From Anadara kagoshimensis (Eukaryota; Mollusca; Bivalvia; Arcoida; Arcidae), in assembly GCA_021292105.1 (NCBI GenBank), contig CM037865.1:74847152-74911151 (forward strand): a DNA stretch of 64,000 nt, given 5' to 3'. The notes under the pieces are model-generated. The model made no database searches. It was not told the DNA's origin and worked only from the letters and a program-made list of their open reading frames with translations. This document shows positions 7,480 to 61,845 of the stretch, in pieces (the first letter of the stretch is position 1; each line of letters opens with the position of its first letter). The translations under genes were made by a program, and so were the position numbers.

Positions 7480-10400
7480 ATGGATCTGTTAATACGAGGA
7501 TCGCCTACACCTAGGAATTATGATAGACAGGTTCCCGGAAGTGCCAGAGACAGACCAGTCGGCGGACGACCTCCGAGTGCCAAACCCACATCTGTTAGAA
7601 ATCCTATAACTGTATGTATTAATGGAAATAGTTTAGTAATCAGTAAAATATAAGACATAACTACCAGTAAGTTAGTGGTACTTAACAGTATATTTATTTA
7701 CAATGACCAAACTATCAGTACCGGTTTAATGAGAGACTTTTCCTGTGTACATCAAACCTGTATACTTGAAATCTATGTGACTATAATTATTTGCAAAACA
7801 AATTAAAAACAAACATAATATCCGTATCTGAATCACAATCCCAAAGCAAAGTAAAACATTAAAAAAAACTTTGAAATTGGCAAATTAAATGAACATATGG
7901 ACTTCCACCAGGAGAGTGAGACCGGGTGCTCTGGAAGGGTAAGTACCTTTTATTTAGTTAGGTACACCTGTTACATGTATAATCAAAATTGAGAATGAAA
8001 GGAACATGGAGCTATTGGGTGTTATTTTGGATACAGAGACTGATTTATTTTTAAATTTACTTTAAAATTCAATGGTATAAGTTGATGTCATTGATGTCTT
8101 TATTTTACTTGATTTGGCATATTTTGTGTATGCTGTCAAAATCAATTTGAATAAGTTATTTTCAATTGATTTATTCAATTGAATAACTATTACCAGTACA
8201 CATGTTTAATAAATTTTAATAAAAATGTCCTGATATATGTAATATTTATTTTTATGTTCTTATCTAGGGAGTCGAGACTCCAATACGTACAGATGCAAGG
8301 CCACATAGTAGACCCCAGGGGTAAGTGTCTTCAGGTGTAAAAAGTACTGAAACCAATCCTTAATTTTAGTTTTGGAATACATGTATTCACAAGTAGTTCC
8401 AAATGTACCCCCTCATATGCCTTTTAACAATAAAAAGAAAATAAGTCTTGAGATGATGAGATCCCAAAAGTATCATTATGTAATGTGTACACTTGATAAG
8501 GACTTTGAGTATTTATTGGATCACTTTTCTGACAAGTTTGTTTGTGTATTCGTTGTATTTATAATATATCTAAATGTAATGACTTCATTATCCAGGGATT
8601 CATCAAGGGCCTATTTAGGGCCGAAATTCGGCCCCATTCCCAATGGAAAAAACGTTGATTTTTTTCCAAAATCGCCTGAGAAAATTCCCAATTAGAAAAT
8701 TGTGTTGTTTCTAAACGAAAACGAAAGTAAAATTTGTGAAAGCCCCCCCCCCCCCCCCCCATCAGCAAAATCAAGTAAAAGATTCTAGATTATTTTAAAA
8801 CAACATCTGCAAAGCTTGATGAAAATACCGCTTCTACATCAAAGGCTTCTGAGGTCATGAGTAAAACAACTTCTGACACATTGAAGATTTCCCAAAATGA
8901 GCAAAAAGTTGATAGTTTTTCCCAATTTTTAGTTTAGGGCCTTTTCCTAAAAGACCCTGATAAATCCCTATTATCAGTCTGGAACTTTCTCTACCAGTTG
9001 TGTTATGCTTTCTCTCAAAATTTCAATTTTTTATTCTCCACTGCATAACAATTACCTGGTACACAGAACATATATATTAAATGACACATATATAAACAAC
9101 ATGTACTGATTCTCTCCATAATAATTTTAATAAACTTACATAATTTTATTTGTTTACTGTTGAATAATGTAAAAAATAAAAAAGTATTAGGATGTTTTAA
9201 AAAATATCATAGTTCCTCTAACATGTGTGTTTAACAGTTTGGTTAAAGAAATAAAAACTGATAACATTGATAATATGGGACAATGATGAATCACATTGAT
9301 AATATGGGACAATGATGAACAATTAAGCATAAGTGTGTTAGCACTCAAAGTCAACAGTTTGCTGTAATTAAATCAGATTTAGAAATTAGCAGGGAATAGT
9401 CTATCTCGATTACCAACTTATTTTTAATTTAATTTTTAAAATTATAACTGGATTTTATTGTACATTTAATTTAATTTTTAAAATTATAACTGGATTTTAT
9501 TGTACATTCTAGCAGTAATTGCCAATATAAAGGAGATTTATACATTGTCAGATGTTTTATTTTACAGTGTACCAGCTTTGAATCTGAATTGTTTTACTAA
9601 AGAAGAAAAACCAGTCATACCTATAGAAATAGCTGATTATCCCTTAGATTCAGCTAGATCAGGAGTATCAACTGTTAGGTAAGGTAGATTCAGCTAGATC
9701 AGGAGTATCAACTGTTAGGTAAGGTAGATTCAGCTAGATCAGGAGTATCAACTGTTAGGTAAGGGAGATTCAGCTAGATCAGGAGTATCAACTGTTAGGT
9801 AAGGTAGATTCAGCTAGATCTGGAGTACCAACTGTTAGGTAAGGTAGATTCAGCTAGATCAGGAGTATCAACTGTTAGGTAAGGTAGATTCAGCTAGATC
9901 TGGAGTATCAACTGTTAGGTAAGGTAGATTCAGCTAGATCAGGAGTATCAACTGTTAGGTAAGGTAGATTCAGCTAGATCAGGAGTATTAACTGTTAGGT
10001 AAGATAGATTCAGCTAGATCAGGAGTATCAACTGTTAGGTAAGGTAGATTCAGCTAGATCAGGAGTATTAACTGTTAGGTAAGGTAGATTCAGCTAGATC
10101 AGAAGTATCAACTGTTAGGTAAGGTAGATTCAGCTAGATCAGGAGTATTAACTGTTAGGTAAGGTAGATTCAGCTAGATCAGGAGTATCAACTGTTAGGT
10201 AAGGTAGATTCAGCTAGATCAGGAGTATCAACTGTTAGGTAAGGTAGATTCAGCTAGATCAGGAGTATCAACTGTTAGGTAAGGTAGATTCAGCTAGATC
10301 AGGAGTATCAACTGTTAGGTAAGGTAGATTCAGCTAGATCAGGAGTATCAACTGTTAGGTAAGGTAGATTCAGCTAGATCAGGAGTATCAACTGTTAGGT

Positions 10401-59580: not shown

Positions 59581-61845
59581 AGAATGATGTGTATGTCTAC
59601 TGTCGTCTGCCTTCCATGAAAACATTTACTTACCTTAAGCTTGTTATACTTGGTCTTGTCTGTCTTCCATGAAAACATTTACTTACCTTAAGCTTGTTAT
59701 ACTTGGTCTTGTCTATTTTCCATGAAAACATTTACCTACCTTAAGCTTGTTATACTTGGTCTTGTCTCTTCCATGAAAACATTTACTTACCTAAGCTTGT
59801 TATACTTGGTCTTGTCTATCTTCCATGAAAACATTTACTTACCTTAAGCTATTATACTTGGTCTTGTCTATCTTCCATGAAAACATTTACTTACCTTAAG
59901 CTTGTTATATTGGTCTTGTCTATCTTCCATGAAAACATTTACTTACCTTAAGCTTGTTATAATTGGTCTTGTCTATCTTCCATGAAAACATTTACTTAAC
60001 TTAAGCTTGTTATAATTGGTCTTGTCTGCCTTCCATGAAAACATTTACTTACCTTAAGCTTGTTATACTTGGTCTTGTCTATCTTCCATGAAAACATTTA
60101 CTTACCATAAGCTTGTTATACTTGGTCTTGTCTATCTTCCATGAAAACATTTACTTACCATAAGCTTGTTATACTTGGTCTTGTCTATCTTCCATTAAAA
60201 CATTTACTTACCATAAGCTTGTTATACTTGGTCTTGTCTATCTTCCATTAAAACATTTACTTACCATAAGCTTGTTATACTTGGTCTTGTCTATCTTCCA
60301 TGAAAACATTTACTTACCATAAGCTTGTTATACTTGGTCTTGTCTATCTTCCATGAAAACATTTACTTACCATAAGCTTGTTATACTTGGTCTTGTCTAT
60401 CTTCCATGAAAACATTTACTTACCTTAAGCTTGTTATACTTGGTCTTGTCTATCTTCCATAAAACATTTACTTACCTTAAGCTTGTTATACTTGGTCTTG
60501 TCTATCTTCCATGAAAACATTTACTTACCTTAAGCTTGTTATACTTGGTCTTGTCTACTTCCATGAAAACATTTACTTACCTTAAGCTTGTTATACTTGG
60601 TCTTGTCTATCTTCCATGAAAACATTTACTTACCATAAGCTTGTTATACTTGGTCTTGTCTATCTTCCATGAAAACATTTACTTACCATAAGTGTTATAT
60701 TCTTGTCTGCCTTCCATGAAAATTTACTTATTAAGCTTGTTATACTTGGTCTTGTCTATCTTCCATGAAAACATTTACTTACCATAAGCTTGTTATAATT
60801 GGTCTTGTCTATCTTCCATGAAAACATTTACTTACCATAAGCTTGTTATATTGGTCTTGTCTATCTTCCATGAAAACATTTACTTAACCATAAGCTTGTT
60901 ATACTTGGTCTTGTCTATCTTCCATGAAACATTTACTTACATAAGCTTGTTATACTTGGTCTTGTCTATCTTCCATGAAAACATTTACTTACCATAAGCT
61001 TGTTATACTTGGTCTTGTCTATCTTCCATGAAAACATTTACTTACCTTAAGCTTGTTATACTTGGTCTTGTCTATCTTCCATGAAAACATTACTTACCTT
61101 AAGCTTGTTATACTTGGTCTTGTCTATCTTCCATGAAAACATTTACTTACCTTAAGCTTGTTATACTTGGTCTTGTCTATCTTCCATGAAAACATTTACT
61201 TACCTTAAGCTTGTTATAACTTGGTCTTGTCTATCTTCCATGAAACATTTACTACCTTAAGCTTGTTATAATTGGTCTTGTCTATCTTCCATGAAAACAT
61301 TTACTTACCTTAAGCTTGTTATAATTGGTCTTGTCTATCTTCCATGAAAACATTTACTTACCTTAAGCTTGTTATACTTGGTCTTGTCTATCTTCCATGA
61401 AAACATTTACTTACCTTAAGCTTGTTATACTTGGTCTTGTCTATCTTCCATGAAAACATTTACTTACCTTAAGCTTGTTATACTTGGTCTTGTCTATCTT
61501 CCATGAAAACATTTACTTACCTTAAGCTTGTTATAATTGGTCTTGTCTATCTTCCATGAAAACATTTACTTACCTTAAGCTTGTTATACTTGGTCTTGTC
61601 TATCTTCCATGAAACATTTACTTACCTTAAGCTTGTTATAACTTGGTCTTGTCTATCTTCCATGAAAACATTACTTACCTTAAGCTTGTTATACTTGGTC
61701 TTGTCTATCTTCCATGAAAACATTTACTTAACTTAAGCTTGTTATACTTGGTCTTGTCTATCTTCCATGAAAACATTTACTTACCATAAGCTTGTTATAC
61801 TTGGTCTTGTCTATCTTCCATTAAAACATTTACTTACCTTACAGT
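59581..61845 (-). repeat. 53-bp array carrying an exon end and 5' splice site (~42 copies)
   Basis: On the minus strand each unit has ACAAGACCAAGTATAACAAG, CTTAAG, the strong donor GTAAGTAAATG and TTTTCATGGAAGATAG. Read in phase with the next exon (57692) the exon part gives TRPSITSLR|KSSVTND, so the unit contains real coding sequence. An in-frame TAG sits just before ACAAGACC in each unit. Many copies have 1-3 base gaps (for example at 60690-60740), which may be real or long-read errors. The exon body expected at the right end is missing: the array stops at about 61838, within 4-5 nt of the exon end. Confidence 0.93.

Follow-up and report, generated by a model that had tools for sequence, protein, structure and literature searches.

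Genes and arrays at the locus

The stretch analysed here (the window) covers 64 kb of the genome of the bivalve Anadara kagoshimensis (C9:74847152-74911151, in a 1.115-Gb assembly of 36 contigs) and holds two neighbouring genes on opposite strands, CAPS2 (calcyphosin-2) and a gene for a charged, coiled-coil-like protein, referred to below as the second gene. In both genes, minisatellites run across splice junctions. A stretch of 40-82 bp, which takes in 18-34 nucleotides (nt) of exon edge and the adjoining splice site, is tandemly multiplied into the intron, and the outermost copy is the real exon edge. As shown in Table 1, five such arrays were identified in which the gene models place a coding exon edge and its splice site in the outermost copy.

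All of the CAPS2 introns (17/17) were GT-AG, and no internal stop was present. The gene was matched exon by exon by protein P0001 of Tegillarca granosa and by other molluscan calcyphosin-2 proteins, and the Pfam domains PH_CAYP2 and EF-hand_7 were above cut-off. The best match was that of T. granosa, with pieces 70-100% identical to the window exons; the lowest identity (70%) was that of a match extending into the exon 8 array. The T. granosa prediction has no exon 1 or 6 and lacks most of exon 12. When CAPS2 was aligned to its relatives, no insertion was found at the array junctions. The 5' end of the second gene was not found. Its protein gave a distant match to Patella vulgata protein P0064, and a search for a close relative found none.

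The number of exonic nucleotides in the outermost copy was 34 for exon 3, 28 for exon 4, 33 for exon 8, 18 for exon 17 and 20 for the second gene. In the exon 8 array, the later copies have decayed. Intron 3 of CAPS2 has a junction array at both ends, with a third, different array between them. An earlier reading made from the letters of the window alone (the sequence-only reading) had proposed separate arrays in two opposite-strand genes, five of them at donors and one, at 11451-11740, at an acceptor. The acceptor array was borne out by the gene model of exon 4, and coding evidence was found for the donor arrays of CAPS2 exons 3, 8 and 17 and of the second gene; these arrays differ in unit and size. 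The remaining donor array (59581-61845) did not hold, as no exon was found there. The array called at this place has donor-like units; on the exon side, TAAG is all that its outermost copy has in common with the unit. No coding exon was found beside it, and it was rejected as a junction array.

The same reading had described a decayed acceptor array at 12600-13252. We compared the exon 6 acceptor region with its upstream sequence (12560-13190) and obtained a score of 56 (shuffle mean 22.5, z 10.8), while four control stretches and the downstream intron gave z values of -1.1 to 0.8. This supports the decayed array. Two further repeats, absent from the sequence-only reading, cross stop codons and affect both genes (Table 1). 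Therefore, the common feature appears to be the edge of the coding sequence rather than splicing alone.

The borders of the arrays were also inspected. The exon 3 unit is contiguous with the exon, and two bases (TA) are common to the unit and the sequence after the array, as expected of a simple tandem duplication. The number of such common bases was none for exon 4 and one for the second gene. Successive copies of the exon 17 array are separated by a 37-nt filler, which is absent after the last copy. Elsewhere in the window, the filler matched short words only. These results suggest that the array either did not begin with a plain duplication or was reworked later. The filler looks A-box-like; a transfer RNA (tRNA) scan found no tRNA genes in the window. 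Array units were also considered as dispersed repeats, and this was rejected; seven queries gave only 11-16-base matches outside the arrays in the window.

Several other features were observed in and beside these genes. CAPS2 intron 12 contains an open reading frame (21321-21629) that looks, by its motif, like a fragment of a retrotransposon reverse transcriptase. In the second gene, the reading frame of coding exon 42228-41901 (minus strand) shifts part-way, which may reflect an indel in the assembly, a genuine break in the frame or an intron that was missed. A single intron of the same gene holds two separate arrays (46166-46429 and 47454-48251), apparently of one 78-bp unit. Adjoining the array at 59611-61841 is GGCCCATGGGCCTCTTGTTT (61908-61927), single-copy in the window, which resembles an end of a dispersed bivalve element. 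A 145-bp tandem repeat lies at 62041-63672, and the same period was found in 3 of 20 evenly spaced 10-kb stretches of C9 (L012, L013 and L028); judged by period alone without sequence comparison, it is perhaps a dispersed satellite. The window also includes the 3' part of a gene that appears to encode a thiolase.

Table 1. Genes, arrays and repeats in the window and donor arrays elsewhere in the genome. Positions count from the first base of the window unless a contig is named; a slash marks a splice junction.
Feature	Position	Strand	Description
Presumed thiolase gene, 3' part	exons 541-695, 2132-2242, 2920-3087		
CAPS2 (calcyphosin-2)	7480..28982	+	18 coding exons, 663 aa, coding part complete
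Donor array, CAPS2 exon 3	9645-10886	+	40 bp × 31; junction 9678/9679; unit is 34 nt of exon end + GTAAGG
Array inside intron 3, flanked by its junction arrays	10925..11179	+	38 bp × 6.7; no splice site involved
Acceptor array, CAPS2 exon 4	11452-11740	+	58 bp × 5; junction 11712/11713; last copy gives the protein
Decayed duplications, exon 6 acceptor region	12600..13252	+	self-match against shuffles
Donor array, CAPS2 exon 8	18334-18890	+	82 bp, about 7 copies; junction 18366/18367; first copy gives the protein
Donor array, CAPS2 exon 17	27302-28506	+	69 bp × 17.5; junction 27319/27320; first copy gives the known protein
Duplication across CAPS2 stop into 3' untranslated region (UTR)	28966..29037	+	36 bp × 2
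Array across second-gene stop into 3' UTR	37446..37639	-	54 bp × 3.6
Second gene (charged, coiled-coil-like protein)	37608..55025	-	14 coding exons found
Donor array, second-gene exon 41517-41449	40891-41468	-	58 bp × 10; junction 41449/41448
Array with donor-like AAG/GTAAGT units	59611..61841	-	53 bp × 42.5; no exon support, not counted
Donor array L058, kinesin	C8		68 bp × 5.3, cut by sequence end
Donor array L060, kinesin	C9, 15 Mb from window		124 bp × 2.1 and a decayed copy
Donor array L067, kinesin	C1		96 bp × 3.6, cut by sequence end

Copied splice sites and the reading frame

The copies of each splice site were assessed by the frame that their use would give. The full CAPS2 frame was given by 1/31 donors in the exon 3 array, 1/5 acceptors in exon 4, 1/7 donors in exon 8 and 3/18 donors in exon 17. 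In the second gene, for which only the last five exons were translated, 1/10 donors gave the full frame. Among the total of 71 copied sites, the five outermost and two in-frame copies keep the full frame and 64 do not; the examples inspected among these 64 led to a premature stop. The two in-frame copies are copies 2 and 3 of exon 17, which would add 23 and 46 residues.

The splice motif was then compared with the remainder of the unit. The divergence of motif and rest was 0.011 and 0.022 in exon 3, 0.079 and 0.100 in exon 8, 0.046 and 0.000 in exon 4, 0.046 and 0.020 in exon 17, and 0.033 and 0.020 in the second gene. The motif was thus somewhat better kept in exons 3 and 8 and worse kept in the other three arrays, and 35-100% of same-length windows of the unit were kept as well as the motif or better. 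Clear preferential conservation of the splice motif was therefore rejected. In 7 of the 17 full exon 17 units, the G preceding the donor GT has been lost. For mirages, the amphioxus minisatellites discussed below, edge copies are described as escaping homogenisation; here the picture was mixed, as the last full copy on the intron side was diverged in exons 3 and 8 (0.85 in both) and not diverged in exon 17 (0.99) or the second gene (0.97). Unusually strong donors at the array junctions were also considered and rejected, as the array donors ranked 3, 15, 17 and 24 of 32 from the weakest. Taken together, the inner copies look like passengers.

Junction counts in the window and elsewhere in the genome

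Arrays were called by Tandem Repeats Finder and counted if they were at least 150 bp long with a unit of at least 20 bp. The window contained 20 arrays covering 26% of its bases. In 20 evenly spaced 10-kb stretches of C9 (200 kb), there were 27 arrays covering 14% of bases, that is, 8.6 per 64 kb compared with 20 in the window. C9 is 75.63 Mb long, and 0.72 Mb separates the window from its end. At L009, 1.0 Mb from the opposite end, arrays make up 51% of the sequence. Judged from these two places only, this suggests that chromosome ends are rich in minisatellites.

To obtain the number expected by chance, each of the 20 arrays was reduced to a single unit, which could fall at random anywhere except in coding interiors, with 66 splice junctions in the window. 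As shown by this null model, five junction-spanning arrays were seen against 1.56, 1.28 and 0.78 expected for an overlap of at least 1, 6 and 15 nt, respectively (P 0.016, 0.0067 and 0.0006). When stop codons were included, 6 arrays of at least 150 bp were seen against 1.63, 1.33 and 0.81 (P 0.0038, 0.0013 and 0.00006). At the same overlaps, P was 0.0093, 0.0039 and 0.0004 within genes only (12 arrays), 0.011, 0.0044 and 0.0003 with the 78-bp unit counted once, and 0.033, 0.013 and 0.0009 with six shorter two-copy repeats added. The 14 non-junction arrays were GC-richer than the background (0.369 vs 0.308, P 0.005), and a GC preference of minisatellites was tried as an explanation of the excess. 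Weighting by GC gave expectations of 1.73, 1.39 and 0.83 (P 0.024, 0.0095 and 0.0008), lifting the 6-nt expectation only from 1.28 to 1.39, and this explanation was rejected. The in-window excess was thus about 3-6 fold, for a pattern picked after the fact, with P from 0.0003 to 0.033 across all variants of the count. The statement of the sequence-only reading that so many junction arrays are far above chance is too strong for these values.

By plain position, a near self-match was rarer at junctions (5/66) than at intron positions (478/1650), because arrays are long. At 62 junctions and stops outside arrays, there were 5, 2, 1 and 1 decayed self-matches with z of at least 4, 5, 6 and 8. The 499 controls, left from 700 drawn after 201 inside arrays were dropped, gave 25, 17, 13 and 8. 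These results show no clear enrichment of decayed self-matches at the 62 junctions and stops.

The enrichment was also examined in an independent sample of exons. A search of the whole genome with the Pfam kinesin and myosin-head models listed 125 and 87 matches, and 80/125 kinesin and 20/87 myosin matches were taken in list order, each with flanks of about 250 nt. Where noticed, near-duplicate pairs from a single contig were left out, and eight related pairs remain among the 100 sampled matches. As a weak check, AG was found near the 5' end in 89/100 and GT near the 3' end in 93/100, so not all match ends are splice sites. Matches in this genome-wide list were often paired, with like scores on one contig and some 0.1 to 3 Mb apart; they look as after recent segmental duplication or in unmerged haplotypes.

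With Tandem Repeats Finder thresholds of a score of at least 150 and units of 20-130 bp, 3/198 exon edges (about 1.5%) carried a spanning array, all of them donors in recognisable kinesin sequence (Table 1). In 3/3 of these, reading beyond the first donor hits a stop within one unit. The density of the 20 spaced C9 stretches predicts 1.07-1.31 spanning arrays at 198 edges (P for at least three, 0.09-0.15), and three non-spanning arrays in the sampled flanks (49 kb) predict about 0.84 for a 70-bp unit. Thus, the pattern noted in the window recurs elsewhere, and its excess over array density, 2.3-3.6 fold, is not significant alone. Among 20 further myosin donor stubs of 151 nt, able to show short units only, none had a repeat (0/20).

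Some weaker cases were not counted. The L060 gene has a related copy on its contig (L053; 86% alike over 502 bases), in which the stretch repeated in L060 is present as decayed copies (81-82%); Tandem Repeats Finder gave no call for these. This indicates that donor arrays can outlive gene duplication and fade. At an acceptor (L092), a two-copy 57-bp repeat with 79% matches scored 140, which is below threshold. The counted arrays of both samples were 7 donor and 1 acceptor; left out as decayed or weak were the exon 6 and L092 acceptors and the L053 donor.

Origin of the arrays and comparison with known systems

Junction arrays are a recurrent feature of this genome. We consider it fairly probable that they are minisatellites of the type called mirages in amphioxus, born like any other in a minisatellite-rich genome and tolerated because the outermost copy still splices. 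The first duplication, we infer, would be an ordinary tandem one in a genome where minisatellites abound. Inside coding sequence it would be lost; in an intron or across any coding edge (splice site or stop codon) it would be tolerated. The array would then grow and be homogenised by slippage or unequal exchange. Its inner copies would be decoys, most of which would break the reading frame if used. Donor arrays would be safer than acceptor arrays, as the authentic donor is transcribed first and the authentic acceptor last; the 7 donors and 1 acceptor counted fit this, in numbers too small for proof. Since a duplication across a coding edge leaves the protein intact and the genome is minisatellite-rich, most of the pattern would follow. 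The stop-codon repeats favour tolerance of coding edges over a splice-directed process.

Some observations weigh against this explanation. Both samples lean to an excess at junctions (3-6 fold and 2.3-3.6 fold), which tolerance alone does not predict. In exons 3 and 8, divergence is somewhat lower in the splice motif than in the remainder of the unit. In addition, GT or AG is intact in all counted copies (31/31, 5/5, 17/17, 10/10 and 7/7), which would also fit constraint; this says little because, in all but one of the five arrays, divergence between copies is only about 2-3%. Finally, that splicing runs from the outermost copies is something we infer from the reading frame and the conserved protein.

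Duplications might instead be initiated at junctions, above all at donors, by transcription- or splicing-linked events such as R-loops or polymerase pausing at 5' splice sites. Such a process would agree with the five arrays seen against 0.8-1.6 expected in the window, with 4/5 CAPS2 arrays of at least 150 bp being junction arrays, with the 3/198 edges elsewhere against 1.1-1.3 expected and with the predominance of donors (7 to 1). However, two repeats sit on stop codons without a splice site, and decayed duplications were not clearly enriched (1/62 vs 8/499 at z of at least 8; 5/62 vs 25/499 at z of at least 4). Moreover, the independent excess was not significant, none of the 20 further short donor stubs had a repeat, and the window had been picked for the pattern. 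We regard this process as unlikely. It is equally doubtful that duplications start preferentially at 5' splice sites in this way with one to a few per cent of junctions carrying arrays; if true, the genome would hold a large standing reserve of proto-introns and of donors that vary. A residual preference for seeding at junctions is possible. The sequence-only reading had left the choice between a process starting duplication at junctions and special tolerance. Its point that only the outermost copy is needed stands, and the stop-codon repeats favour tolerance; junction-started duplication was not established.

There may also be no excess at all, the pattern being a coincidence of random seeding in a window that is rich in minisatellites, dense in genes and close to a contig end. 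The P of 0.09-0.15 in the independent sample, the density of arrays 0.72 Mb from the contig end and the look-elsewhere effect of the first-stage scan are in line with this, but the in-window P of 0.0003-0.033 and the same direction of the second sample are not. We give coincidence a real but minority chance. Under a selected function, the arrays would be retained for their additional donors, which would tune productive splicing or yield alternative isoforms. This would account for the in-frame insertions of 23 and 46 residues from exon 17 copies 2 and 3 and for the GT or AG retained in every counted copy, and a human minisatellite with multiple splice donors has been reported (see below). It is very unlikely, given that conservation of the splice motif does not clearly exceed that of the unit remainder, that 64/71 copies do not give the full frame and that 7/17 full exon 17 units lack the G that precedes the donor GT. 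Copy numbers are those of the assembly, and misassembly could in principle have created or stretched the repeats. No supporting sign of this was seen; units carry both shared and private variants, unit and size vary from array to array, and other places in the genome show the pattern as well, in one case in a pair of related gene copies (L053 and L060). An assembly artefact is thus highly improbable.

Junction minisatellites are already known from outside the molluscs. Going by the title of the paper, a minisatellite in a human interferon-induced gene reportedly carries multiple splice donors (Turri et al. 1995); this is one locus. The sequence-only reading had known of no multi-copy arrays at junctions in one locus. 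The kind is already described in amphioxus: mirages are minisatellites across exon-intron boundaries in Adh3, the globins BflGb6 and BflGb9 and troponin C, and imperfect ones occur in PGBD5 (PMC3087553, PMC3902484). In amphioxus, RT-PCR (reverse transcription polymerase chain reaction) and the Adh3 data suggest undisturbed splicing, and array length varies between haplotypes (PMC3087553). The amphioxus arrays have been proposed as a source of new introns.

The arrays found in this study resemble mirages. Units cross the exon-intron boundary in the five window arrays and the three kinesin arrays, and their lengths fall in the same range as mirage units (10-160 bp; PMC3087553). Both 5' and 3' boundaries are affected (donors of exons 3, 8, 17 and the second gene, the exon 4 acceptor and the decayed exon 6 acceptor). 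AG and GT signals are kept in many copies, the authentic exon edge is retained, and several genes per genome are involved. Unlike in the amphioxus accounts, the host is a bivalve, five arrays with up to 31 copies lie in two neighbouring genes, and repeats also cross stop codons. Among the papers listed by a literature search that covered few subscription journals, none was recognised by title and abstract as dealing with junction minisatellites in molluscs, so such arrays are, as far as seen, unreported in bivalves. For annotation, this is a warning that exon predictions in such genes may have been put together from decoy copies. In a contiguous assembly such as this one, tolerance and initiation at splice sites can be tested against each other.

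As with intron gain through tandem genomic duplication of AGGT-containing exon sequence, as treated in a review (PMC3443670), exon sequence with a splice-like signal is duplicated in tandem. In that model a new intron arises between two copies, whereas here the copies are intronic, the genes have many exons and the protein stays the same. The occurrence of junction arrays in unrelated bivalve genes, at several places in the genome, means that mirages are not peculiar to one chordate lineage.

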